DNA of 64,000 nucleotides, taken from assembly GCF_002159975.1 (NCBI RefSeq), contig NZ_NFJR01000013.1, positions 1 to 64,000 of the forward strand, in the 5' to 3' direction. Each line of letters starts with the position of its first letter. The stretch's first letter is position 1. The notes beneath the pieces were generated by a model. The model did no database searches. It had not been told where the DNA came from and was given only the letters and a program-made list of their open reading frames with translations. Shown here one piece after another: positions 51,419 to 64,000 of the stretch. Source of the DNA: Barnesiella sp. An22 (GTDB lineage Bacteria; Bacteroidota; Bacteroidia; Bacteroidales; Barnesiellaceae). The position numbers and the translations under genes are program-made.

Positions 51419-51446
51419 AGCGGGGAGCCATCGCTGGTTCCCCGCT
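51419..51446. terminator. Terminator after the glycosidase operon
   Basis: AGCGGGGA/TCCCCGCT with an inner CCA/TGG, flanked by CTTTTTTT on the plus strand and TTTTC on the minus strand. It lies 26 bases past the GH20 stop. Confidence 0.75.
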
Positions 51447-51471: not shown

Positions 51472-53742
51472 TTAGTGAGAGAGTGTAGCCGGGTCGGGCA
51501 GGGCCAACGTACCACCTTCGGGTGCGAATATAAACCCTTTGTTGTTCCAGGCACGCAGGTAGCCGCCGATGTTGTTGTTGATCATCAGCAGGCGGAAAGC
51601 GTGTTTGCCCTTTTGCAGAGCTATCGAGTTGCGGGTGTGCGAGTGGCGCACGAGTCGGCCGTCGTTGCTGATGACCACCCGTCCGTCGATTTGCAGTTCG
51701 TCCATCTCGGAAGAGAAGTAGTAGATACCGTCGGCCGGGACTTCGAAGTAGCCCGTGTAGCAGTAGGCCCCCTTTTCGTCGCCACTGGTCTTGAGGCTGA
51801 AATCCTTGACCACTTGAGGCTCGGTCCAGTAGGCCCCCTCTAAGTCTTTTACAAAGTAGAGGTTACCTTCGGTGCGTCGCCGTTCGATACCCGGTTGGGT
51901 AGCCTGGTCGGTTGCCGGCATGAGCGGCTCGCGAACCACCTCGAGGGTACGGGTCGTACTCAATTTCCCCGAGGGGAGCAGCGTAGCGATTTTCAAGGTC
52001 GTGTTGCGGTCGAAGGTCAACGGATTCTCATATCGGGTCGACCCGGCCTGCGGTTCGCTGCCATCGGTAGTATAGACCATGGGGTAGTTGCGGCTGTTGT
52101 GGAAGGTCAGTGTCGTCTGGTCGGTAAAGGCGATGCGGTTGGCCATGGGCCCTTCGGGCAGGGGAATGTGGTAGTTGATGTGGTGCATGTCGAGCCGTAC
52201 CAGTTGCGAGTCGAGGCGACGGGCAAACGAGTTATAGTCTTTTTTCTCTTTGGGAGTCCAGTCGAGTTCGGCCAGAGCGAGCATGCGCGGGTAGAGCAGA
52301 TACTCGGTATAGTCGGGCGTGACGGCATATTCGGTCCACATGTTGCACTGGGCGCCCAGTACATGGTGGCGAAGGTTCTCGGGAATCTTTTCGGACGAGG
52401 GGTCGTAGTTGTAGATTTTGTCGAGCATGATGGCAAACTTGATGGCGATGGGCTCGGCCTCGACGGCTCCTTGACCGGCATCGACATAGAGCCACGGCGA
52501 GGGGGTCATAATCACGTCGTGTCCCATCGAAGCGGCTGCGATACCGCCCTCTTCGCCCCGCCACGACATGACGGTAGCCGAGGGGGCCAGTCCGCCTTCG
52601 AGTATCTCGTCCCAGCCAATCATGGCCTTGCCGTGTTCGAGAATGATTTTCTCGATGCGGTGGATAAAGTAGCTTTGCAGTTCGTGTTCGTCTTTCAGAT
52701 TTTCATCTTGGATACGTTTCTGGCATTTGGGGCAGGCTTTCCATCTCTTTTTGGGGCATTCGTCGCCACCGATGTGTACATATTTGCCCGGGAAGAGGGG
52801 AATCACCTCGTCGAGAATGTTTTCGAGAAATTCGAAAGTCTTGTCGTTGCCGGCACAATAGACGTTGTCTTCCACGCCCCACTTGTTGCGCAGCTCAAAC
52901 GGGCCGCCGGTACAGGAGTATTCGGGGTAGGCGGTGAGGGCGGCCAGGGCGTGACCCGGCAACTCAATCTCGGGGATGACGGTGATGAAGCGGTCGGCCG
53001 CATAGGCGACTACCTCTTTAATCTGCTCTTGCGTATAAAATCCCCGGTGTATGGAGCCGTCGGCATTGTGGCGTACCGAACCTACCTCGGTGAGGCGGGG
53101 GTATCTCTTTACTTCGATGGTCCAGAGGTGGTCGTCGGTGAGGTGCCAGTGGAAATAGTTCATCTTGAACATGGCCATGATGTCGAGCTGTTTCTTGACG
53201 AATTCCACGTCGTGGAAGTGGCGGCACACGTCGAGCATCATGCCGCGGTAGCCGTAGGCCGGTTCGTCACCGATTTCGACACAGGGCATTGTCCAGTCGA
53301 TACCGTCGACAGGTTGCTCGCTCTCGATTTGGGGAGGGAGCAGCTGCATGACCGACTGCATGCCGTAGAAGAGACCTTGCGGTGTGCGGGCCTTGACCTG
53401 TACCCGCTTGGGGGTGACGCTCAACCGGTAGCCTTCGTCGCCCAGTTTCAGCGAGCGGTCTATCTGCAGCGAGATGCAGTTGTGGTTGCCGCTGTTTTTG
53501 ATAGCCAGGTCGTAGCCGGTGGCTCGATTGATTTTGGCCTGAAAGTAGGCGGCCACCTTTTGCAGGTCGGCCCGTTGGGTACGGCCGACGACCAGCGACG
53601 TTTGAGGCGTGAGGGCGAAAGTGCCGCTTTTCACGGTCATCTCTTGAGGGGCAGGAGTGATATTCAGCGGGGTGTCTTGCGCCGCATATCCCGCAAACAG
53701 GGATATGCAGCACCACAGACAAGCGATTATGATTTTCTTCAT
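51472..53742 (-). CDS. GH20 beta-N-acetylhexosaminidase, exported
   Basis: 756 residues. A signal peptide ends GYAAQ. A GH20b-like N-terminal domain (about 25-160) precedes the catalytic barrel, with YRGMMLDVCRHFHDVEFVKK at the start and the catalytic pair D327-E328 in HIGGDECPKKRW. The last ~130 residues form a PA14-like/beta-sandwich module (GYFEVPADGIYYFSSEMDEL). Such enzymes cleave terminal beta-GlcNAc or GalNAc from host glycans. It has no lipobox or T9SS tail, so it is probably periplasmic. It is the last gene of the operon, 39 bases after GH3. The ATG at 53742 gives the proper signal peptide. Confidence 0.92.
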   Translation of the reverse strand: MKKIIIACLWCCISLFAGYAAQDTPLNITPAPQEMTVKSGTFALTPQTSLVVGRTQRADLQKVAAYFQAKINRATGYDLAIKNSGNHNCISLQIDRSLKLGDEGYRLSVTPKRVQVKARTPQGLFYGMQSVMQLLPPQIESEQPVDGIDWTMPCVEIGDEPAYGYRGMMLDVCRHFHDVEFVKKQLDIMAMFKMNYFHWHLTDDHLWTIEVKRYPRLTEVGSVRHNADGSIHRGFYTQEQIKEVVAYAADRFITVIPEIELPGHALAALTAYPEYSCTGGPFELRNKWGVEDNVYCAGNDKTFEFLENILDEVIPLFPGKYVHIGGDECPKKRWKACPKCQKRIQDENLKDEHELQSYFIHRIEKIILEHGKAMIGWDEILEGGLAPSATVMSWRGEEGGIAAASMGHDVIMTPSPWLYVDAGQGAVEAEPIAIKFAIMLDKIYNYDPSSEKIPENLRHHVLGAQCNMWTEYAVTPDYTEYLLYPRMLALAELDWTPKEKKDYNSFARRLDSQLVRLDMHHINYHIPLPEGPMANRIAFTDQTTLTFHNSRNYPMVYTTDGSEPQAGSTRYENPLTFDRNTTLKIATLLPSGKLSTTRTLEVVREPLMPATDQATQPGIERRRTEGNLYFVKDLEGAYWTEPQVVKDFSLKTSGDEKGAYCYTGYFEVPADGIYYFSSEMDELQIDGRVVISNDGRLVRHSHTRNSIALQKGKHAFRLLMINNNIGGYLRAWNNKGFIFAPEGGTLALPDPATLSH

Positions 53743-53781
53743 ATCTGTTTTTATCGTGTTGGATGTGTGGGTAAACAAGGG

Positions 53782-56367
53782 TTAATCCTCTCCGTAGTTG
53801 ACGGTCATGTTGATGACGTTGCGGTTGTTCACTTCGATTTCGGCAGTGCGGTAGCCCGATTTCTTGAAGACCAGGAACTCGTGGTTGCCGGTCGTTACCT
53901 GGAATCTGCCGCGTTCATCGGTCTTGGCCAGGGTTTTCCCCGTGCTCTTCTCGATAACCTGCATGCCGGGTACGAGGGTAGCCTGTATGTCGCGTACCTC
54001 GCCTTTTACCTGCATTTGCCGCGAGCTTTTCGGGGTATAGGCTACTACGACTTCATCGTCGCCGATGGTCGAAGGTTCGCCTACGACGACGCTCTTCGTC
54101 AGGATAATGTTGTCGGACGACTGTCCGGCCTCGATGATGAATTCGCCGGGTTCGACAAATCGGTGGTTCTGTTCATCGACCAGATAGAGTTCGGCTACGG
54201 GAACCTGCAAATGTACGGTGCGGCTTTCGCCCGGCTTCAGCTCGATTTTCAGGAAGTCGCGCAATTGTCTTATCGGGGTTACATAGGTGCTCACCTTGTC
54301 GCGCACGTAGAGTTGTACCACCTCTTTTCCGGTGCGTTTGCCGGTATTCTTCACCTCGACGGTAGCCTTGATGGTGTCGGTCAAGCCATATTTATCGCGG
54401 TCGGTCGTGAGATTCTTGTAGACAAACGACGTGTAGGAGAGACCGTATCCGAAGGAGTAGAGCGCCGTGGGCGAGGAGAATACATAGTCGCGGCCCGGAG
54501 CGTCGTAACTGCCCGGATTGTGGTAGAAGCCTCGGTCGGAGGGGAGGTAGTTGTAGTAGACGGGCAGATGGCCGGTGCTTCGGGGGAAGGAGAAGGTAAG
54601 GCGTCCCGAGGGATTTACCCGGCCGAACAGAATGTCGGCGATGGAGTTTCCGGCCTGTTCACCGGCATACCACTGCACGAGTATGGCGGGGAGGTTGTTC
54701 TTCTCCCACTCGATGGCAAACGGTTTGCCTGTTACCAGTACGAGAATGACGGGGGTACCCGTGTCGTATACCGCACGGATGAGTTGGGTCTGGGCTCCGG
54801 TGAGGTTCAGATCGTTGAGGTCGAAGCCCTCGCCGCAGGTCGAATTTTTGTAACCGTCGCGTACGAATGCCGCACTGGTGCTGCCGCCGAAGATGACGGC
54901 GACCTCGCTTTGACGGGCAGCTTCTACGGCTTCGGCAATGCCCGATGTATCGAGCGAAGCCAGGCTACATCCTTTGGCATAGCGAACGATGGTGTTTTTG
55001 CCCACCTGGCTTTTGATGCCTTGCAGCGGAGTGATGCCGTCTTTGTTGTTGCGGCTCCAGGTGTAATCGCCAAACTGTATCTGGTCGGCATTGGGGCCGA
55101 TGACGGCAATCGACTTCAGGCGTTTGGGGTCGAGGGGCAGCAGGTTGTTTTCGTTTTTCAGCAATACGGTCGATTCGTCGGCGATGGCCTTCGACAGCCT
55201 TACGCTCTCGGGAGTGTGGCGTTTGTTCTGTTCGTATCGGTTGCCGTAGGGGTCGTCAAACAGGCCCGAGGCAAACTTGGCATACAAGACCCGGCGTACA
55301 GCCGTGTCGATGACCGATTCGTCGATGACCCCTTTTTCGACAAGACTTTTCAAGAAGGGGTAGCAGTTGCTCGAGGCTTCGACATCGAGTCCGGCGGTAA
55401 TGGCCTGGATAGCGGCTTCGGACGAGTTGCGGGCCGTGCGGTGCATGCTTTTGAGCATTTCGATGGCACCCCAGTCGGAGTAGACATACCCTTTGAATCC
55501 CCATTGATTGCGCAGAATTTCGGTGAGCATATAGTGCGAAGCCGAATTGGGCACGTGGTTCCACGAGTTGTAGCTCGACATTACGGCCAGTATCCCCGTG
55601 TTCTTTACCACCATTTCGAAAGGCTTGAGATAAATCTCGTGCAGGTCTCTCAGTCCGCATTCCACCGACGCCAGATTCAGACCGCTCAGCGGGTTGCCGT
55701 GAGGCCCGTAGTGTTTGAGCATGGGCGATATGCCGCTTTCGAGATATCCGTCCACCTCTTCGATAGCGAATAGGCCGCACAGGTAGGGGTCCTCGCCATA
55801 CGACTCTTCTACCCGGCCCCATCGCAAGTCGCGCACGGCATCGATACAGGGAGCCAGCACTTGTTTGAATCCCATGCTGTGAAGGTCGTTTGCGATGTGA
55901 TGAGCCTTTTCACGAGCCAGTTGTGGTGTGAACGTGCTGCCGAGTGCGATGTTCTGGGGATAGACGGTGTTGCCGTCGTGTACCACGCCATGCAGCGATT
56001 CGGCTACGGTGAAGACGGGAATACCCAGACGGGTCTCCTCGACCATGTACTTCTGTATGGGGCGCATGTATCGGGCACAGTTGTCGCCGGTAAGGGGGAA
56101 TCCTTCGACAAAGCCCCAGGCGATGTCGCCTGCTTTGTTTGAGAGTTTTTGAGGATCAAACTCCTGTCCGTTGAAAATGTCGGACGAGTGAATGTGCCGT
56201 ATTTGGGCAATTTTCTCGTCAATAGTCATGCGGCCCAGCAGATCCTCCACCCGCTCTTCGATAGGGAGATCGGGGTTTTTGTAAGGAGGAATCTGTTTCT
56301 GGACTGCCTGTGAATAAGTCGCGCTTGAAGCAAGCAGCAACGAGCATATAAGCACTTTGTGTAACAT
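53782..56367 (-). CDS. GH3 beta-glycosidase with C-terminal CarboxypepD_reg-like domain
   Basis: 861 residues with a signal peptide ending TYSQA. GH3 N-terminal barrel with the nucleophile D298 in YVYSDWGAIEM, then the C-terminal alpha/beta domain (VLLKNENNLLPLDP) and a fibronectin-III-like domain (VEVKNTGKRTGKEVVQLYVRD). The last ~75 residues (VKGEVRDIQATLVPGMQVIE to INMTVNYGED) fit the CarboxypepD_reg-like fold usually found at the N-terminus of SusC proteins; finding it at the end of a GH3 enzyme is unusual. The sugar specificity (glucosidase, xylosidase or hexosaminidase) cannot be set. Probably periplasmic. Confidence 0.9.
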   Translation of the reverse strand: MLHKVLICSLLLASSATYSQAVQKQIPPYKNPDLPIEERVEDLLGRMTIDEKIAQIRHIHSSDIFNGQEFDPQKLSNKAGDIAWGFVEGFPLTGDNCARYMRPIQKYMVEETRLGIPVFTVAESLHGVVHDGNTVYPQNIALGSTFTPQLAREKAHHIANDLHSMGFKQVLAPCIDAVRDLRWGRVEESYGEDPYLCGLFAIEEVDGYLESGISPMLKHYGPHGNPLSGLNLASVECGLRDLHEIYLKPFEMVVKNTGILAVMSSYNSWNHVPNSASHYMLTEILRNQWGFKGYVYSDWGAIEMLKSMHRTARNSSEAAIQAITAGLDVEASSNCYPFLKSLVEKGVIDESVIDTAVRRVLYAKFASGLFDDPYGNRYEQNKRHTPESVRLSKAIADESTVLLKNENNLLPLDPKRLKSIAVIGPNADQIQFGDYTWSRNNKDGITPLQGIKSQVGKNTIVRYAKGCSLASLDTSGIAEAVEAARQSEVAVIFGGSTSAAFVRDGYKNSTCGEGFDLNDLNLTGAQTQLIRAVYDTGTPVILVLVTGKPFAIEWEKNNLPAILVQWYAGEQAGNSIADILFGRVNPSGRLTFSFPRSTGHLPVYYNYLPSDRGFYHNPGSYDAPGRDYVFSSPTALYSFGYGLSYTSFVYKNLTTDRDKYGLTDTIKATVEVKNTGKRTGKEVVQLYVRDKVSTYVTPIRQLRDFLKIELKPGESRTVHLQVPVAELYLVDEQNHRFVEPGEFIIEAGQSSDNIILTKSVVVGEPSTIGDDEVVVAYTPKSSRQMQVKGEVRDIQATLVPGMQVIEKSTGKTLAKTDERGRFQVTTGNHEFLVFKKSGYRTAEIEVNNRNVINMTVNYGED

Positions 56368-56452
56368 AATGTGTGTTCTATGGTGTTAATGATTATTTGT
56401 TTATAAAGTAGACGAATAAGGGGGTTGATGTCTCATCGGGTATCTTGCAATT

Positions 56453-58651
56453 TTAAATATTTTTATAAGTTTGACGTATCTCTCCGATGTATTGCTTGTA
56501 GAGCTCCTCGATGATGGCAATGGAATCGCCCGAGGGGCCTTCGTCGTATGTCTTGTCGCTGGTTACCCACGCCTTTTCCAGACCGAAGTAGTCGGGCTCC
56601 CGGGCAGGCTCCCCTTTCAGCAGAGCCAGCTTGTAGTTGACCCAAGCCTCCCATCGGGGCAGGTAGAGGTCGCGCATGAGGCCGCCCCACTCCTTGTGGG
56701 CATAGTCGTGCAGTTCTGAATCGTAATCGGTCCAGGTGGTAATCTGTCGTTTGGCATTGGCCACGAACTGCGCCTTTTCCTGGGGATTGGTACCGGCCTT
56801 TTCGGCTTCGCCTATCCAGGTGCCCACATAAAATTCCTTGCGGGTGGAGAGCAGCCGGTCGTCGTCGCGGATGATGTCGAGCATCCGGGCCGACAGGCGG
56901 GTGAACCGGGGGGCATCGTGGTGTTGGAAGGCAGCTACCGCCTGGCGATGCAACGCTTTCAGATAGTCGCTCAATACCTGGCGGGTCAGGTCTACCAGGT
57001 CGTAGCGGTAGGTGTCGCTGTTACGGAACTTGTTGCGCGAGGCATACATCGTTTCCCAGGCGGTCACCACCTGGTCGGGATCGTAGAATATTTCGGCATT
57101 GCCCCAGGCCGATACGTGTTTGATGGTATCGGCGGGTCGCGCACAGATGTACGACTCTACGGGGCCGCCGGTCTCGTTGTGACACTCATAGATGGTATGG
57201 GCGAGAATCTCCCAGGCCTGGTCGCAGGCCGAGTCGGGTTGTCCATATCGGTAGAGAGCATACTCTTTGAGCCATTCGTCTACGTTCAGGCTGTCTTCCC
57301 GCCAGGCCATGTCGTAGACCATATCGTATACGACAGGAATGGTTCCTATACCTTCGGGGGCTGCACCTATGCCGCACAGGTTTTTCCCCAGCGGGTGGTG
57401 TTTGGCGAATACGGGGCCCGAAGCATAACTGCTCATCTTGCCGTGCAGCCCGGTCTTGCCGCCGAAGTTGGGCAGGGCGCACCAGATCCAGTTGTGGTAC
57501 ATGTGCCCTTCGGGTTTATAGAACATCGAACTGGGTATGCCTCCCCATTGAGGCCGTTCGCAGGCCATCAGGTCGAGAATGATGGCATCGCCCTGTTTCA
57601 GCCCCTCCATGAGGCTGGGCATGGGGTTGTGTTGCCAGCCTTGCAGAATCCACACGGCCTTGGGCGAGATGCGTCGCATGGCCTGCAGTATCTTTGTGGC
57701 AGCCGCTTTCACGTCGATGCCTTCGGTCTGCCCGCCTTCGTGGAAGGGGTCACCGGCAAAGTAGAGGGCATCGCCGAAGAGTCTTTTCTGCTCGGCGTAG
57801 TAGATGTCGGCTATCGAGTCGAACAGCGGGTCGTTGGGGTCGAGGAAGGCGGGCCGCTGATAGGTGCACCACTCGCCCTGCTCGAGAATGTGTGCTTGGG
57901 GAAATTTCTCTTTCAGACTGTTGGGTACCATGCCGTAGAAGCCCTGGAATACGGGTTGCATGCCCAGCTCGCGCATGCGGCGCAGCATCTTCTTTTGCAG
58001 GTCGGTCTGTCGGTCGATAAAGGCTTGCGAAACCGGTCCGCCGAACCCCTCGAGGTTGCCCATCAGCCACCAGGCTTCGTACCCGGCACCGGGAAGAAAG
58101 GCGAAGATTTCGTCGTCGGTATATCCCAGACGCTTGAGGGTATTTTGCCAGACGGCATATTGGCTGTTGACGGCCATGAGCGGCAGGTTGATGCCTTGAA
58201 GAGCCATGCGATCTATCTCCTGTTCCCACTCTTCCCAGCCCCAAAAAGCCATGGAATAGCTGTATGTGCAATAATTGAGGTAGTATCTGAAGGGCTGTGA
58301 GGCTTCGATGCGTAGGGGCGAAGCAATCCGGGGCAATGTGTCGGGTATGCCCGAGAGGTTGTTGCCGCACCAGGAGACAGACGCATGGCAGTAGTGGCGG
58401 AGGTAGTGGTTGAGACCTCGCGCCATGGAGACACCATTATTTCCTTGAATCTCTATTTGGTCTCCGTGTTGTTTCAGTTCGAAGTAGTCGTTTTCGGCCG
58501 GCACGAGTGTGAAGATGAAATCCTTTTCGTGACCCGGAACCAGGCGCCCGGCCAGCTGTTGGGCCGAACGTTCATAATCGGGATTTTGCCCGCAGGAGAG
58601 CAGCCCCAGAAGCAGGGCTGCCCATAGAAATATCGTGATGTGTTTTGTCAT
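56453..58651 (-). CDS. GH89 alpha-N-acetylglucosaminidase, lipoprotein
   Basis: 732 residues. The signal peptide ends in the lipobox LLSCG, so it is lipid-anchored. GH89 signatures: NYCTYSYSMAFWGWEEWEQE, the catalytic Glu E305 in DPFHEGGQTEG, WILQGWQHNP, and the second Glu E433 in AAPEGIGTIPVVYDM. The enzymes remove terminal alpha-GlcNAc, as in heparan sulfate and class III mucins. Active-site residues are inferred by comparison with human NAGLU and Clostridium GH89. It lies between the EEP and GH3 genes with 85-base gaps on both sides, all on the minus strand. Confidence 0.93.
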   Translation of the reverse strand: MTKHITIFLWAALLLGLLSCGQNPDYERSAQQLAGRLVPGHEKDFIFTLVPAENDYFELKQHGDQIEIQGNNGVSMARGLNHYLRHYCHASVSWCGNNLSGIPDTLPRIASPLRIEASQPFRYYLNYCTYSYSMAFWGWEEWEQEIDRMALQGINLPLMAVNSQYAVWQNTLKRLGYTDDEIFAFLPGAGYEAWWLMGNLEGFGGPVSQAFIDRQTDLQKKMLRRMRELGMQPVFQGFYGMVPNSLKEKFPQAHILEQGEWCTYQRPAFLDPNDPLFDSIADIYYAEQKRLFGDALYFAGDPFHEGGQTEGIDVKAAATKILQAMRRISPKAVWILQGWQHNPMPSLMEGLKQGDAIILDLMACERPQWGGIPSSMFYKPEGHMYHNWIWCALPNFGGKTGLHGKMSSYASGPVFAKHHPLGKNLCGIGAAPEGIGTIPVVYDMVYDMAWREDSLNVDEWLKEYALYRYGQPDSACDQAWEILAHTIYECHNETGGPVESYICARPADTIKHVSAWGNAEIFYDPDQVVTAWETMYASRNKFRNSDTYRYDLVDLTRQVLSDYLKALHRQAVAAFQHHDAPRFTRLSARMLDIIRDDDRLLSTRKEFYVGTWIGEAEKAGTNPQEKAQFVANAKRQITTWTDYDSELHDYAHKEWGGLMRDLYLPRWEAWVNYKLALLKGEPAREPDYFGLEKAWVTSDKTYDEGPSGDSIAIIEELYKQYIGEIRQTYKNI

Positions 58652-58736
58652 GCGTGTATGGTTTCTTATGTATCGGGTTTAAAGTCTTTCCGGTTCGGGG
58701 GCCTCTCCTGCCGAGAGTCCGTTGCCCGGCCCTTCG

Positions 58737-59576
58737 TTATTTGCAGATGATGTCGACGAATATGGGATAGTGGTCCGAGACATGGGCCAGGTCTACCTTC
58801 TCGCCGTCGATTTCAAGCGTCCGTACAATGTGAGTATCGACGATTTTTATCTTCTTCCGGTTCTTTTTGCTCAGCAGAATGAAATCGATGAGTCCGCCGT
58901 CGTCGGCACGGCCGGGAATGGAGCTGCCCACGGTGTCGCTGGCAATGACAAAATCACGGGCAAATACGGGGAAAGAGTATCCGCCTCCGCTCCATCGGAA
59001 CGAGTCGTTCAGGTCGCCGGCCACGAATACGGGCTTGTCCATTTCGCGGGCATCGTTGCAGATGATTTTGGCTCCCTGTTTGCGCTTCTCGTTGTGCAGG
59101 TCGGAGTGGGTGGCGATGAAGACAAACTTGTCGAGTTCGATTTCAACCGCAGCCCGACCTTCATCGCCGGGCAGGTAGGCTACATAGCGGCTTTTGACCG
59201 GCAGGTTTTTCTTCACCAGTGCTCCGCAGCCTATGCTGCCGTTTTTGTCGAAGGGTTGGGCATTGCCATAGAAGTCGGCATAGTCGAGACCCGTGCTTTG
59301 GGCGATGTCGCGCAACAAATAGCGGTTGCCCCGGCCTTGCGATGCGCTGTCGAGTTCCTGCAGCGAAATGATGTCGGCATTGAGAGCCCGGATGACGCGC
59401 CCCAGATTGACGATGTTGCTGTCGTTCATTACGCCCGGGTTGCCGCCACCTTTGCCGTAGTGGGTGTTGTAGGTAAGCAGTCGTATGACCCCGGGGGCTT
59501 TGGGGTAGGTTTGTGCGTCGACCGAGCATACGCTCGTGAGAACCAAAAGAATGAAGAGAGTTAGCACCTTTTGCAT
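58737..59576 (-). CDS. Endonuclease/exonuclease/phosphatase-fold exported enzyme (paralogue 1)
   Basis: 279 residues, signal peptide ending VDAQ. EEP-superfamily catalytic motifs: YNTHYGKGGGN, SLQELDSA (Glu), FVAGDLNDS (Asp, Asn) and the terminal SDHYPIFVD (Asp, His). Members act on nucleic acids, sphingomyelin, inositol phosphates or other phosphodiesters. It shares its start (QTYPKAPGVIRLLTYNTHY) with the gene at 61860-62948 but lacks the T9SS tail, so the two paralogues are probably sent to different places. The substrate may be a phosphorylated glycan of the same target; this is inference. Confidence 0.88.
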   Translation of the reverse strand: MQKVLTLFILLVLTSVCSVDAQTYPKAPGVIRLLTYNTHYGKGGGNPGVMNDSNIVNLGRVIRALNADIISLQELDSASQGRGNRYLLRDIAQSTGLDYADFYGNAQPFDKNGSIGCGALVKKNLPVKSRYVAYLPGDEGRAAVEIELDKFVFIATHSDLHNEKRKQGAKIICNDAREMDKPVFVAGDLNDSFRWSGGGYSFPVFARDFVIASDTVGSSIPGRADDGGLIDFILLSKKNRKKIKIVDTHIVRTLEIDGEKVDLAHVSDHYPIFVDIICK

Positions 59577-59621
59577 AACTTTGAGAATTAAATAGTTGTA
59601 ATGTGTGAATATAATCGGTGT

Positions 59622-60527
59622 TTATCGTACCTGTATTTTCCGGGTCGACTTGAGGCTTTTGACCAGATAGGTGCCAGGAGCCATGTCGAGGTTGCTGATT
59701 CCGGCCGGCAGGTCATACTCGGCCACGCAGACTCCGTCGGGGGTATATATGGAGAGGTGGTCGGCTGCCTGGGTTTTGACGTGAATGACCGACTTCCCTC
59801 CCCAGACTTCTATATCCGGGTCGTCGGCTGTCTGGGTGGCTATGCTGCTACCGGCCATAGCCTGTTCGATTGCGGCCTCGACGAGCGGAGCCATCACGGC
59901 ATATCCGGCTTCGTTTGGGTGGACTCCGTCGCCTACCGAGTATTCCACTTTCAGAGCTTTGAAGGGGTTGACCATCGGCGTGTAGAAGTCGACGCAGGGA
60001 TAGCCGTGAGCATCGGCATACTCTTTGATCCATTGGTTGAGGTCTATAATGTCTTGACGGGGATCTACATCGGGGGCCCAGCCGTAACTGTATGCAGGCA
60101 GCAGCTGGCACATGACCACTTTGATGCCGTTGGCCGTGGCGATTTCGGCCATCGACGAGAGATTGTCTTCGATCATTTCGAGGGTCGAGGGTCCCGTGTT
60201 GCCGGCAATATCGTTGGTGCCGCCCAGAATGACCACGACGCTGGGATTCAGATGCACGACATCCTGTTTGAAGCGGATAAGCATTTGCGGGGTCGTTTGT
60301 CCCGAAATACCCCGGCAGACGTATGAGCCTGCAAAAAATTCGGGGCAGGTGCTCTCCCAGCGTTCGAATATGGAGTTACCCATGAAGACTACCCGCGAAG
60401 GGTCTTCTTCTCCGGCCAGCAGGGCCTGGTTGGCCTCTTGATACCGGGCGAGTTCGGCCCAGTCCTGAGCAAAGGCCGAGAGGGTCAGGGCTTGTAGTAA
60501 AACGGAAAGTATAAGTATCTTTTTCAT
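59622..60527 (-). CDS. SGNH/GDSL-family hydrolase with T9SS-like tail
   Basis: 301 residues, signal peptide ending SAFAQ. The four SGNH blocks are present: FMGNSIFERW (catalytic Ser), YVCRGISGQTT, ILGGTNDIAG and DGVHPNEAG (catalytic Asp and His). The C-terminal ~70 residues (HLSIYTPDGVCVAEYDL to STRKIQVR) look like a T9SS sorting domain, implying surface or extracellular location. Such enzymes remove acetyl or other esters from glycans, or act as lipases. It lies 4 bases after the esterase gene, so the two are coupled. Confidence 0.87.
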   Translation of the reverse strand: MKKILILSVLLQALTLSAFAQDWAELARYQEANQALLAGEEDPSRVVFMGNSIFERWESTCPEFFAGSYVCRGISGQTTPQMLIRFKQDVVHLNPSVVVILGGTNDIAGNTGPSTLEMIEDNLSSMAEIATANGIKVVMCQLLPAYSYGWAPDVDPRQDIIDLNQWIKEYADAHGYPCVDFYTPMVNPFKALKVEYSVGDGVHPNEAGYAVMAPLVEAAIEQAMAGSSIATQTADDPDIEVWGGKSVIHVKTQAADHLSIYTPDGVCVAEYDLPAGISNLDMAPGTYLVKSLKSTRKIQVR

Positions 60528-60531
60528 TGTA

Positions 60532-61821
60532 TTATTGGTTTTTCAGTGGAACTTCGTACAGCCATTTCAAGATGGCCTCTTCGACTTGGGGCAGACATTC
60601 GTAGTCGGGATAGAATCCGAATCCGTGACCGCCCGAGGGCAGTGTAATCAGTTGTGCGGGAATGTTCTGGGCTTGCAGTCCCTCGACATAGCGTATGGCG
60701 TTCTGTATCTTCACCCCGTTGTCGTCGGCCGCATGGAAGAGCAGGGCCGGCGGAGTTTGCGGGGTGATGAGCAGTTCGGGCGAGCAGGCCCGGCACATCT
60801 CCGGCGTGGGCGAGGTGCCCAACAGGTTGTTGCGGCTGCCTTCGTGCACATAGGGCTCTTCGGTCATGGTGATGACCGGGTAGAAGAGTATGGAGAAGTC
60901 GGGACGCGATTCGCCCCGTTTTTCGGGCAGTGCTACGTCGATGTCGTCGTGGTTGAATGCCGTCGATACGAATGCAGCCAGGTGTCCGCCGGCCGAGAAG
61001 CCGATGACTCCCACGTGATTGGGGTCGGACTGTATCGAGTAGTGGTTCTCTTTGAGGTAGCGGATGCCTTGTTGTGCGTCGCTGAGCGGGATTTCGGGGT
61101 GACCCGAGGGGAAAGCATAGTAGAGTACGGCGGCTACGAATCCCTGTTCTTTGAACCATTGTGCTACCAGGCTGCCTTCGTGGTAGGTGGCTACCGTCTT
61201 GTAGCTGCCGCCGGGGCAGATGAGCACGGCCGGGGCGGGCGCTGTCTGGATGTCGGGGCGATAGACAATAATCTGGGGATTCTGGATATTTCCCAGGTTG
61301 TTGCCGTCCCAGTAGGGTTCGCCCGAGAGCCATTGGGCGAAGGGGTCACCGTCGGGCCACAGGAATATCTCTTCGGGTTCGTTGCTCTTTTGACGGTAGA
61401 CGAAGGTGCCTGTGAGGGTGATGTCCCCTTCGAACCGGCACTGGTCAAAGAGCAGGGTGGGGCGGCCGTTCTGATAGGACGAGGTGCGGGCCGTCCCGCC
61501 GGTCCATTTGCCCTGACGGGTGGAGCCGTCGTGCGACACGGTGATGTAAGAGGGGATAAGGTCAAGCCCTCCCCGAGGCTGTATCTTTTCTTGAAAGTAG
61601 ACGGTTACATAGGTGGGTGTAGCCTCTTGAGACGCTTGTATGGCGGTTTGAAAAACCGAGCTGCCTTCTCGCACCTCGCCTATGTTGTCTTGTGTGTATG
61701 ACGTCTGGTTTATCGTTATTCCTGTGGGGGTGGCAGAGGCTTCGGAATTGCTCTTTTGGCAGGCCGGTAAGGAACAAGAGATAGCCAGAAGTCCACATAG
61801 TATGGATTTCGAATAAGTCAT
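60532..61821 (-). CDS. Alpha/beta-hydrolase, BD-FAE/acetyl-esterase-like lipoprotein
   Basis: 429 residues. The lipobox is SLPAC. A beta-sandwich-like region (about 25-150) precedes an alpha/beta-hydrolase with the nucleophile Ser in GVIGFSAGGHLAAF, an Asp in FHAADDNGV and a His in PSGGHGFGFYPD. The oxyanion segment is ICPGGSY. The family contains carbohydrate acetylesterases and feruloyl esterases that strip substituents before glycosidases act. It is anchored in the membrane, unlike the T9SS-tailed SGNH gene that follows 4 bases later. The exact ester is unknown. Confidence 0.86.
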   Translation of the reverse strand: MTYSKSILCGLLAISCSLPACQKSNSEASATPTGITINQTSYTQDNIGEVREGSSVFQTAIQASQEATPTYVTVYFQEKIQPRGGLDLIPSYITVSHDGSTRQGKWTGGTARTSSYQNGRPTLLFDQCRFEGDITLTGTFVYRQKSNEPEEIFLWPDGDPFAQWLSGEPYWDGNNLGNIQNPQIIVYRPDIQTAPAPAVLICPGGSYKTVATYHEGSLVAQWFKEQGFVAAVLYYAFPSGHPEIPLSDAQQGIRYLKENHYSIQSDPNHVGVIGFSAGGHLAAFVSTAFNHDDIDVALPEKRGESRPDFSILFYPVITMTEEPYVHEGSRNNLLGTSPTPEMCRACSPELLITPQTPPALLFHAADDNGVKIQNAIRYVEGLQAQNIPAQLITLPSGGHGFGFYPDYECLPQVEEAILKWLYEVPLKNQ

Positions 61822-61859
61822 AATGTCCGTGTTAAAGAACGTATGGCCGAACGGCTACA

Positions 61860-62948
61860 CTACAGCTTGATGATTCGAGCTTTATGGCTTTTTCCTTGAG
61901 CCGAAGTCTCTACAATGTAAATGCCTTTTGCCAGACTCGAGAGGTCGACGGTGCGAATATCCGTGCCTTTGAGTTGCAGTTGCTTTTGTCCGGTCAGCGA
62001 ATAGATGTTTACTTGTTCTACGGGGGTGTCACTCTCGATGTTCAGCTGGTCCTGTACATACGTAGGATAGAGTTTTACCTCTTGAGCGGCAGTGGTATTT
62101 TCGATAGCGCTCAATCCCGGCACTTCGATGTCGACAAATACGGGGTAGTGATCCGATATGGAGGCCAGATCGACGACAGAACCCTCTATTTTCAATTCTC
62201 TTACGATATGGGTATCGACAATCTTGATACCCGAGTCTTTGTAATCGTGGTACAGGATATAGTCGATGAGACCGTTGTTGTCGGTACGTCCCGGAATGGT
62301 ATTCCCTTCGGTATCGCTGGCGATGGTATATTTGGTGAGCAGCGTGGGAAATGCGATACCGCCTTGTCCCCAACGGTGCGAGTCGTTCATGTCGCCGGCC
62401 AGGAACGACGGTTTGCGTATGTAGTCCAGTTCGTTGATAAGGGTATTGGCGCTCATGATACGCAGATTGTCGTCCAGATCGAGGTGAGTGCAGAAGAAAA
62501 CGAACTGGTCAAAGTCGATTCGCATGGCGCAACGCTCTTCAATCGAGCCACCCAGCGAAATAAGTTTTACTTTGCTGATGGGCAAATTGGGTTTTACCAG
62601 TACGCCCGGACCCACTTTCCCTCCGTCCAATTTGCAGAGACCTCCGAATATGGGAGTGTAGGGAATGTCGGTATAGTCGGTGATTTGCTGTAACAAGTTT
62701 CTGCGATTACGTCCATTCATGGCACTGTCCAACTCTTGCAGGGCAACCACGTCGGCATCGAGAGCCTCGATGACCAGAGCAACACGGCGGGTATTGTAGT
62801 CGTCGATTGAACCCGGATCGCCACCTCCCTTGCAGTAGTGGGTGTTGTAGGTCAGTAATCGGATTACTCCGGGAGCTTTGGGATAGGTTTGAGCATCGAG
62901 CCCGAACAGGAAACAGCAAACGAAAAAGAGAAGGACAAATTTTTTCAT
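61860..62948 (-). CDS. Endonuclease/exonuclease/phosphatase-fold exported enzyme (paralogue 2) with T9SS tail
   Basis: 362 residues, signal peptide ending LDAQ. The EEP motifs are intact: YNTHYCKGGGD, ALQELDSAM, FLAGDMNDS and SDHYPVFVD. It is clearly related to the 58737 gene along the catalytic domain. After residue ~285 it has a T9SS-type tail (VNIYSLTGQKQLQLKG to KSHKARIIKL), so this paralogue is probably surface-exposed. The ATG at 62948 is preferred over 62957 for the signal peptide. It is the first gene of the operon after the terminator at 62973-63008. Confidence 0.88.
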   Translation of the reverse strand: MKKFVLLFFVCCFLFGLDAQTYPKAPGVIRLLTYNTHYCKGGGDPGSIDDYNTRRVALVIEALDADVVALQELDSAMNGRNRRNLLQQITDYTDIPYTPIFGGLCKLDGGKVGPGVLVKPNLPISKVKLISLGGSIEERCAMRIDFDQFVFFCTHLDLDDNLRIMSANTLINELDYIRKPSFLAGDMNDSHRWGQGGIAFPTLLTKYTIASDTEGNTIPGRTDNNGLIDYILYHDYKDSGIKIVDTHIVRELKIEGSVVDLASISDHYPVFVDIEVPGLSAIENTTAAQEVKLYPTYVQDQLNIESDTPVEQVNIYSLTGQKQLQLKGTDIRTVDLSSLAKGIYIVETSAQGKSHKARIIKL

Positions 62949-63027: not shown

Positions 63028-64000
63028 TTATTTCTTGATGAATTTAGCCGTCGTGTTACCTTCGGTCGTCGAGAGTTTTACCAGATACATACCGGGAGTG
63101 AGGTCGGCGATGTCGATGGTCTGAACGCCGGCTTCGATATTCTTCACGCAGGCACCGGCAAGCGAGTAGATTTGGGCGCCCAGAACTTCGGCACCTTCGA
63201 TGGTCAGGTAATCATCGGCCGGGTTGGGACCAACTTTTACCGTAGCTTTTTGGGCGTTCTCGATACCCGAGTATTCGCTGACAACCTTTACAAATACCGT
63301 GTTGAGTGAAAGTTGAGGATAGGCCTCGTTAATCATCTCGCAGCGATACTCTTTGCCTACGTGCGACTCGTCGAAGCAGAACCAGCCTTCTACGGCGTCG
63401 GTCGGTTCGATTACATTACCGTCGAGGTCTTTCCAGGTGTAGATGGTCATGTAGCCGTCGATGTCATATTCGCCCGAGAGGTCAATGTCTTCGTCGACCA
63501 TAATCTCGTATTCACCGTCGGCATTCATGTAACCGATAGGCATACCGCCGCGGGCATTCCATTGCAGCTTGTAACCCGATGTGAGTCTTTCGCCGGTAAT
63601 GGGGTGGTTGGGGATGGTCGAGAAGGTGTACATGTTGTCTTCGAGGTTGAGCAACCAGTCGAGGAATTCGGTTTGGCGGCAGTTGTTGCAGATGAACGAA
63701 GATTCGTCGGTGAATGCGTTGCGATAACCGGCCAACTGACGGCATTTACCGTTCGAGTCGCTCAGGTCGAGATTGGTCAGTTGCAGGTTGCGGCGTACGT
63801 GCAGGTAGCAGTCCATATCTTCGTTGGTCATTTGGATTTTCACCTTTTCCATTTGTGTGCCCGAGATGTGAACCACCGTAGCCTTACAGTCCATCAACGT
63901 GAACGAACCTTTCAGGTTGGCTACACCGGCGATGGCAGGATACCATTGGTTATCTCCTTCGGTTGTAGTCCAGGTAAGACCGCTGGTCTTTCCGTTGAAG
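63028..64000 (-). CDS. Large surface protein with T9SS tail, partial (N-terminus outside the window)
   Basis: The frame is open from the right window edge to the stop at 63028, giving at least 324 residues. An ATG at 63897 is internal, since the same frame continues upstream (for example GDNQWYPAIAGVANLKGSF). The visible part has leucine-rich-repeat-like segments (LTNLDLSDSNGKCRQLAGYR, with CNNCRQTEFLDWLLNLEDN), then beta-sandwich-like strands, and a clear T9SS sorting domain at the end (AQIYSLAGACVKNIEAGVQT to GNTTAKFIKK). Exported by T9SS and attached at the surface; function unknown. Confidence 0.82.
   Translation of the reverse strand, partial: FNGKTSGLTWTTTEGDNQWYPAIAGVANLKGSFTLMDCKATVVHISGTQMEKVKIQMTNEDMDCYLHVRRNLQLTNLDLSDSNGKCRQLAGYRNAFTDESSFICNNCRQTEFLDWLLNLEDNMYTFSTIPNHPITGERLTSGYKLQWNARGGMPIGYMNADGEYEIMVDEDIDLSGEYDIDGYMTIYTWKDLDGNVIEPTDAVEGWFCFDESHVGKEYRCEMINEAYPQLSLNTVFVKVVSEYSGIENAQKATVKVGPNPADDYLTIEGAEVLGAQIYSLAGACVKNIEAGVQTIDIADLTPGMYLVKLSTTEGNTTAKFIKK

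Follow-up and report, generated by a model that had tools for sequence, protein, structure and literature searches.

In Sus-like polysaccharide utilization loci (PULs) of Bacteroidota with an extracytoplasmic function (ECF) sigma factor and FecR, the genes for SusC, SusD, sigma, anti-sigma, glycosidases and surface proteins are found in one run. Such PULs, sugar-specific phosphoesterases of the endonuclease/exonuclease/phosphatase (EEP) superfamily, and glycoside hydrolase (GH) family 89 are each already known. The locus presented here, PUL-A, belongs to Barnesiella sp. An22 (contig NZ_NFJR01000013.1) and lies in and beyond the window, by which we mean the whole 64,000-nucleotide stretch of DNA that was analysed. 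PUL-A resembles these PULs in its constituents; however, it has two EEP phosphoesterases, EEP1 and EEP2, which differ by a type IX secretion system (T9SS) tail, and no recognised surface endo-glycosidase or lyase (one product, U805, is without a family). We regard it as an evenly balanced proposition that PUL-A targets a glycan with phosphodiester links or decorations, the likeliest candidate being a polymer from Gram-positive gut bacteria, either lipoteichoic or a teichoic-acid-like one of the wall.

GlcNAc-PDase is an EEP protein from human faecal DNA that removes phosphocholine or phosphoethanolamine from C6 of GlcNAc, and is weaker on glucose and inactive on galactose or mannose (PMC10704324). 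Therefore, the EEP fold can serve GlcNAc-6-phosphodiesters. The fold, the metal-site residues N, E, D, N, D and H, and the single domain with a signal peptide are shared between this enzyme and the PUL-A enzymes, and the setting of PUL-A fits GlcNAc phosphodiesters as well. However, GlcNAc-PDase is described there mostly from Clostridia and as standing alone, and EEP1 and EEP2, which gave no PF23226 match at E<=0.01, are likened to it by fold and residues. Bt3783 (4c1r), by its title a sugar phosphatase of gut Bacteroides, shares the EEP fold with EEP1 but is only 15% identical to it, and its substrate is, again by title, a phosphomonoester. CpGH89, hNAGLU and Bt3590 are of the same family as the PUL-A GH89 and have the same three domains; their substrates in the sources used are gastric-type mucin GlcNAc-alpha-1,4-Gal and heparosan, whereas the GH89s of PUL-A and of a second locus, PUL-B, are linked with EEPs.

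Candidate substrates are the polymers of Clostridioides difficile. The repeat of its lipoteichoic acid (LTA, PS-III) is [-6)-alpha-GlcpNAc-(1-3)-[-P-6]-alpha-GlcpNAc-(1-2)-D-GroA]. This LTA contains 6-P-6 phosphodiesters and D-Ala esters, and GlcN makes up about 15% at one residue (PMC10642750); it is joined to beta-1,6-glucose on glycerol (PMC5270738). The sugars of PS-II, a hexaglycosyl phosphate, are beta-Glc, beta-GalNAc, alpha-Glc and alpha-Man (PMC5270738). Phosphodiester, alpha-GlcNAc, D-glycerate, GlcN, beta-Glc and beta-GalNAc in these polymers match the enzyme families of PUL-B and partly those of PUL-A; however, glycerate genes are missing from PUL-A, and alpha-GlcNAc is missing from PS-II. 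Neither a teichoic-acid-type PUL nor a link between GH89 and glycerate kinase turned up among the matches listed in the open-access literature searched.

The window is positions 1-64000 of an 85,558-base contig, C5. A preliminary description had reported a seven-gene operon in one direction at 51472-62948, with gaps of 4-85 bases and no SusC/SusD pair. The seven minus-strand open reading frames (ORFs) were confirmed, with gaps of 39, 85, 85, 45, 4 and 38 bases, and Pfam matches agreed with the families that had been named (GH20, GH3, GH89, two EEPs, SGNH and an acetylesterase-like protein). The absence of SusC/SusD is literally correct for the window, but it is not a trait of the locus, since the pair lies just past the edge. 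The minus-strand run goes on through the rest of a T9SS-tailed protein, SusD, SusC, GH20a, U805, FecR and the ECF sigma factor, so that PUL-A comprises 14 genes on one strand (C5 51472-75862). Its largest gap is 194 bases (SusC-GH20a), or 222 bases before SusD when the T9SS-tailed protein is started at its ATG. A seven-gene operon lacking SusC/SusD is thus rejected on the DNA beyond the window edge. The features are as follows.

51419 to 51446, no strand given: candidate transcript-end hairpin, 25 bases beyond the GH20b stop; on the minus strand, only CTTTTC follows it.
51472 to 53742, minus strand: GH20b, beta-N-acetylhexosaminidase family (PF00728, 2.3e-117); from its ATG start, the listed ORF reaching 53778.
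53782 to 56367, minus strand: GH3 with an Fn3-like domain and a weak C-terminal CarboxypepD_reg-like stretch (PF00933, PF01915, PF14310).
56453 to 58651, minus strand: GH89, alpha-N-acetylglucosaminidase family (PF05089, PF12972, PF12971; CpGH89 2vc9, 1.4e-140).
58737 to 59576, minus strand: EEP1, EEP-fold phosphoesterase without a T9SS tail (PF03372; model pLDDT 92.7; active-site residues kept).
59622 to 60527, minus strand: SGNH/GDSL esterase (PF13472, 2.1e-27).
60532 to 61821, minus strand: BD-FAE/AxeA1-like alpha/beta-hydrolase esterase (PF20434; NF042968 at 178.6 bits, below its cut-off of 700).
61860 to 62948, minus strand: EEP2, EEP-fold phosphoesterase with a T9SS type A sorting domain (PF03372, PF18962; TIGR04183, 36.4 bits).
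63028 to 64000, minus strand, cut by the window end: T9SS-tailed protein (PF18962), a possible surface glycan-binding protein.
C5 64537-66342, minus strand: SusD (PF07980, 1.9e-50).
C5 66365-69850, minus strand: SusC (Plug 6.8e-23, STN and barrel domains).
C5 71633-74050 (L009:11634-14051), minus strand: U805, 805-aa protein without a Pfam family.

The SusC and SusD genes are adjacent, with a 22-base gap, and two GH20s, a GH3 and a GH89 stand in one run with dedicated regulators, ECF sigma and FecR. Judged by its genes, PUL-A is a complete polysaccharide utilization locus rather than a seven-gene operon. The T9SS-tailed protein reaches C5 64314 from its ATG, or 64485, and had no Pfam domain above cut-off besides PF18962. 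In GH89, the N-terminal, barrel and C-terminal NAGLU domains are all present and the protein aligns with CpGH89. The PDB relatives of GH3 are beta-glucosidases, beta-xylosidases and isoprimeverose-producing enzymes; therefore, its sugar is not fixed by them.

EEP1 and EEP2 belong to the EEP superfamily by the PF03372 profile, the fold and the metal and catalytic residues. In a FastTree phylogeny of 24 hand-picked EEPs, they fell into separate clades with a local support of 0.98 each, and each clade held a copy from G068, a genome of another family; the duplication thus seems to predate the divergence of the two families. N37, E74, H157, D188, N190, D231, D268 and H269 (EEP1 numbering), active-site residues among them, were invariant in all 24. 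EEP1 and EEP2 thus look like old paralogues with intact active-site residues. The alignment showed a tail on EEP2 and none on EEP1 in 4/4 PUL-A loci, and the two EEP2 tails that were scored gave 36.4 bits in the window genome (G000) and 39.5 bits in G068. A further T9SS-tailed EEP, on contig C2 of G006 (L045:11586-12677, minus strand; 40.9 bits), grouped with EEP2 in the tree. It adjoins ORFs resembling another SusC/SusD pair, and no GH89 was found among the ORFs read in the 20 kb around it.

The predicted EEP1 model (pLDDT 92.7) has the EEP fold. No close PDB relative of EEP1 was found by sequence at 1e-3, and neither its profile matches nor its fold matches tell phosphatase, nuclease and sphingomyelinase apart. 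The model aligned with 4c1r at a Z of 25.4 over 222 residues and with Tdp2 phosphodiesterase chains at a Z of up to 23.8; since Bt3783 and the Tdp2 chains score similarly, the fold does not decide EEP function. Bt3783 itself presumably works in a mannan context.

The EEP2 tail matched TIGR04183 above its cut-off of 23 bits, and that of the protein starting at 63028 reached 45.5 bits. SprA is encoded in the genome of the window and in 0/14 control genomes, so that both proteins combine a sorting domain with the T9SS machinery. T9SS tails had been proposed for SGNH and EEP2; the latter holds, whereas the SGNH copy of the window gave no T9SS match in a scan up to E = 10. Its orthologue in G007 scored 18.8 bits, below the cut-off, with a C-terminal tail that is T9SS-like by eye. 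The N termini of GH89 and the esterase are lipoprotein-like, as judged by eye from the translations and as had been described, and that of GH20b is plain signal-peptide-like.

PUL-A is present in 3/9 Barnesiella genomes (G000, G006 and G007), the fourth locus being that of G068. The EEP2 orthologues of G006 and G007 are 65-75% identical. The shared core consists of ECF, FecR, U805, SusC, SusD, the T9SS protein, EEP2, EEP1, GH89, GH3 and GH20b. GH20a is missing from the G068 locus. The preliminary description had suggested a search for the order EEP-SGNH-GH89-GH20 in other genomes; SGNH and the esterase are present in G000 and G007 and absent from the loci of G006 and G068. By comparison of these loci, the conserved unit is EEP2-EEP1-GH89-GH3-GH20, without SGNH.

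The association of EEP and GH89 was then surveyed in 393 Bacteroidales genomes. EEP1-like matches at E<=1e-12 occurred in 24 of them (32 matches, 29 loci), and GH89 lay within 20 kb in 7/29 loci against 0.34 expected; none of 20,000 random trials reached seven when EEP loci were taken as independent, EEP and GH89 were placed randomly and genome sizes were rounded. Seen from the other side, 11/17 above-cut-off GH89 genes in those 24 genomes were within 20 kb of such an EEP; two GH89 matches of G019 sit on short contigs. Two fusions were counted apart from the 7/29. In G067, a 952-aa protein (L156:16415-19273, minus strand) joins an EEP (28-244) to a GH89 (264-921). In Hoylesella enoeca, a 1573-aa GH89-GH3 fusion (L042:10719-15440, plus strand) adjoins an EEP of about 49% identity to EEP1, and further ORFs of the locus are SusC-like and SusD-like in position and in the start of their sequence. 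The preliminary description had proposed, from the EEPs beside GlcNAc hydrolases, a target with phosphodiester-linked or phosphorylated GlcNAc. This proposal gains support from the above-chance linkage, the fusion and the precedent of GlcNAc-PDase (PMC10704324), and the reading of a phosphodiester-bearing GlcNAc glycan is strengthened by the linkage and the fusion.

PUL-B was read in L096:1534-20000 and L149 (contig C4 of G006), L151/L152 (G004), L092/L154 (G001), L156/L157 (G067) and L158/L165 (G372). In G006 it consists of ECF, FecR, SusC, SusD, three EEPs (the third T9SS-tailed, 31.9 bits), a beta-helix protein, GH89, glycerate kinase, a GntP permease, an HGSNAT-like acetyltransferase and a second GH89. 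The G004 locus matches it with one additional 669-aa gene, and that of G001 matches in the parts read; genes were taken as the longest ORFs, which in G001 gave opposite-strand ORFs at the expected places of SusD, EEPb and the HGSNAT-like gene, so that the reading of G001 covers the other genes. A glycerate kinase flanked by two GH89s and accompanied by an EEP is found in 7/9 Barnesiella genomes, the exceptions being G000 and G003; for G002, G005, G007 and G008 this is deduced from gene positions. Glycerate kinase matched at 1e-30 in 107/393 genomes and adjoins GH89 in five, namely G006, G001, G004, G067 and G372. In G067 and G372, which represent two other families, the DNA read contains EEP-bearing PULs of the PUL-B kind. 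The GntP permease is found in most PUL-B loci read, and the HGSNAT-like gene in those of Barnesiella. Some PUL-B EEPs match PF23226 (2.9e-5 to 1.4e-5 in G006, 2e-6 in G372), mostly or wholly near or below the 27-bit cut-off.

Every part of the LTA repeat thus has a corresponding enzyme family in PUL-B, and the Barnesiella loci add one that could handle GlcN. Its EEPs, two GH89s, glycerate kinase and GntP correspond to PS-III-type LTA by family names rather than by activity, and PUL-B is accordingly named here a candidate utilization locus for clostridial-type lipoteichoic acid. PUL-A offers phosphoesterase, alpha-GlcNAc, beta-HexNAc and beta-glycoside families. Gene content, conservation, the EEP1/EEP2 split, active-site residues, and the EEP-GH89 linkage and fusion are computed; we infer the phosphodiesterase activity of the EEPs, the protein locations, the regulation and the polymer. 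EEP2, carried to the surface by T9SS, would hydrolyse sugar phosphodiesters and so trim or depolymerise the polymer, and SusC/SusD, perhaps with the T9SS protein, would bind and import the pieces. EEP1, in the periplasm or at the membrane, may strip the remaining phosphate esters, and the esterases may take off acyl or alanyl esters. GH89, the two GH20s and GH3 would then release alpha-GlcNAc, beta-HexNAc and a beta-linked sugar. We speculated that gut Bacteroidales forage in this way on teichoic-type phosphoglycans of Gram-positive bacteria, PUL-B on clostridial-type LTA made of alpha-GlcNAc and D-glycerate, PUL-A on a phosphodiester polymer related to it, with a surface EEP instead of a glycosidase or lyase cutting the backbone for SusC/SusD. 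This broader proposal is tentative and falls a little short of being evenly balanced.

Several observations weigh against the teichoic-type reading of PUL-A. The step from a phosphodiester GlcNAc glycan to Gram-positive wall polymers carries the main uncertainty: PUL-A has no glycerate genes (among its 14 genes Pfam recognised no glycerate kinase or transporter, the sole glycerate kinase of the genome being on contig C3), and no polymer looked up fits its whole enzyme set. G000 and G003 have glycerate kinase without PUL-B, and G004 has a second copy elsewhere; therefore, the kinase alone is not diagnostic. In G372 only a piece of glycerate kinase was found, in a 213-aa ORF, and between it and GH89 lies a sulfatase-family gene whose S-T-P-A-R motif suggests a true sulfatase. 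The seven linked EEP loci are three of PUL-A, three of PUL-B (Barnesiella) and one of G244; they are mostly two homologous groups and therefore not seven independent events, and the EEP query was itself taken from a GH89 neighbour. No EEP was found by blastp in 8/9 other GH89 loci (G263, G358, G333, G113, G213, G173, contig C17 of G016, and G381), although blastp can miss distant EEPs, as it did EEPa of L096, which Pfam found. An EEP beside GH89 as a general rule was rejected on these EEP-free loci. Moreover, the closest fold matches of EEP1 include nucleases at nearly equal Z, and the G244 EEP sits in host-glycan-like company, among GH110-like, GH95, GH29, GH2, GH3 and GH89 genes. That cluster, on contig C2 (L141:6850-18775 and L083:2772-14683), holds GH110-like, metallophosphatase, two GH89, two GH2, GH95, EEP, GH29 and GH3 genes.

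The leading rival, which we consider unlikely but by some way the strongest of the alternatives, is a glycan of host, invertebrate or fungal origin (mucin O-glycan, N-glycan or glycolipid) in which single sugars bear phosphocholine, phosphoethanolamine or phosphate. Here the EEPs would uncap the glycan for GH20 and GH89 without depolymerising it. GlcNAc-PDase, which strips phosphocholine or phosphoethanolamine from C6 of terminal GlcNAc (PMC10704324), fits this picture, as do the mannosyl-6-phosphatase title of Bt3783 (4c1r), the G244 cluster, the suitability of terminal HexNAc for GH20 and GH89, and a divergent GH92 neighbour of PUL-A in G000 and G006. However, the G068 locus lacks this GH92 upstream, the glycerate genes of PUL-B are left unexplained, and the 14 PUL-A genes include no recognised fucosidase, sialidase, sulfatase or endo-acting enzyme for host glycans, U805 having no family. 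Because Pfam matched no fucosidase, sialidase, sulfatase or heparinase domain among these genes (with the same reservation for U805), mucin and heparan sulfate, which had been put forward as inducers, would fit PUL-A less well.

It is improbable that the EEPs are nucleases of the surface and periplasm, or phosphoesterases of a general kind, which serve DNA or phosphate supply and are present in the locus by chance or co-regulation. EEP1 has a weak exodeoxyribonuclease III match (TIGR00633, 0.00088), EEPc of PUL-B matches the same model at 2.9e-12 but below cut-off, close fold neighbours include TDP2 and exonuclease III chains, and T9SS-borne DNases form an NCBIfam family, which is matched here by the tail only. 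The above-chance linkage to GH89, the GH89 fusion and the retention of both paralogues in 4/4 PUL-A loci read argue against this. More improbable still is a glycosylphosphatidylinositol (GPI)-type or inositol-phosphate glycan, in which alpha-GlcN(Ac)-inositol would be the target of GH89, and links through ethanolamine phosphate or inositol phosphate those of the EEPs. The HGSNAT-like gene of PUL-B would suit alpha-GlcN, and PF23226, matched by some PUL-B EEPs at the scores given above, is a PGAP2IP nuclease-like domain; it is, however, not matched by EEP1 and EEP2, no inositol gene was recognised among the Pfam-scanned genes, and the PUL-A run contains no mannosidase. Breakdown of heparan sulfate or heparosan with GH89 as a NAGLU-like exo-enzyme is the least probable, since the domains recognised in the 14 genes of PUL-A include no heparinase, GH88 or sulfatase (U805 without a Pfam family) and the EEPs, GH20 and GH3 would go unexplained, even though heparosan oligosaccharides are a substrate of Bt3590, a GH89 of B. 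thetaiotaomicron (PMC8225759), and an HGSNAT-like gene and an SGSH-like sulfatase occur in PUL-B and G372, respectively.

If the teichoic-type reading is true, commensal Bacteroidales would harvest wall polymers of living or dead Firmicutes, including the C. difficile type, and so have a means of cross-feeding or antagonism in the gut. The reading would also give a function to EEP proteins now named by superfamily only, suggest a natural setting for EEP GlcNAc-phosphodiesterases and provide enzymes for teichoic acid analysis.

U805 was found in 6/393 Bacteroidales genomes at 1e-8 and is possibly an uncatalogued carbohydrate enzyme. The protein of the window species has no Pfam match; among seven members, five weak Pfam families appeared, each in at most two members (best E 0.018). 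The best PDB profile match was 5no8 (0.0013, residues 228-359), and filamin Ig repeats matched the same stretch. The model is poor (pLDDT 47.5), with beta-rich ends and a helical middle. No EEP was found by blastp in the U805 stretches of G014, G016 and G316; a GH3 adjoins U805 in G014 (on a contig of only 5.8 kb) and in G016, and none was seen in the G316 stretch.

The Bacteroides-type promoter pattern had no full match in L009, its -7 boxes were at chance level with 8 against 7.4 expected (one sits 42 bases before the ECF gene), and the sigma-70 scan was likewise at chance level. So were terminator-like sites, which numbered 15 against 14.4 expected; the hairpin at 51419..51446 was assigned to the plus strand in that scan.

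The GH92 gene beside PUL-A is divergent (L009:16042-19833, plus strand, corresponding to C5 76041-79832) and encodes F5/8 type C domains and a sub-threshold T9SS match. It was rejected as a core member of PUL-A on its absence upstream of the G068 locus; the G007 contig stops 2.4 kb before the sigma gene. In G006, the GH92 neighbour is kept (79%).

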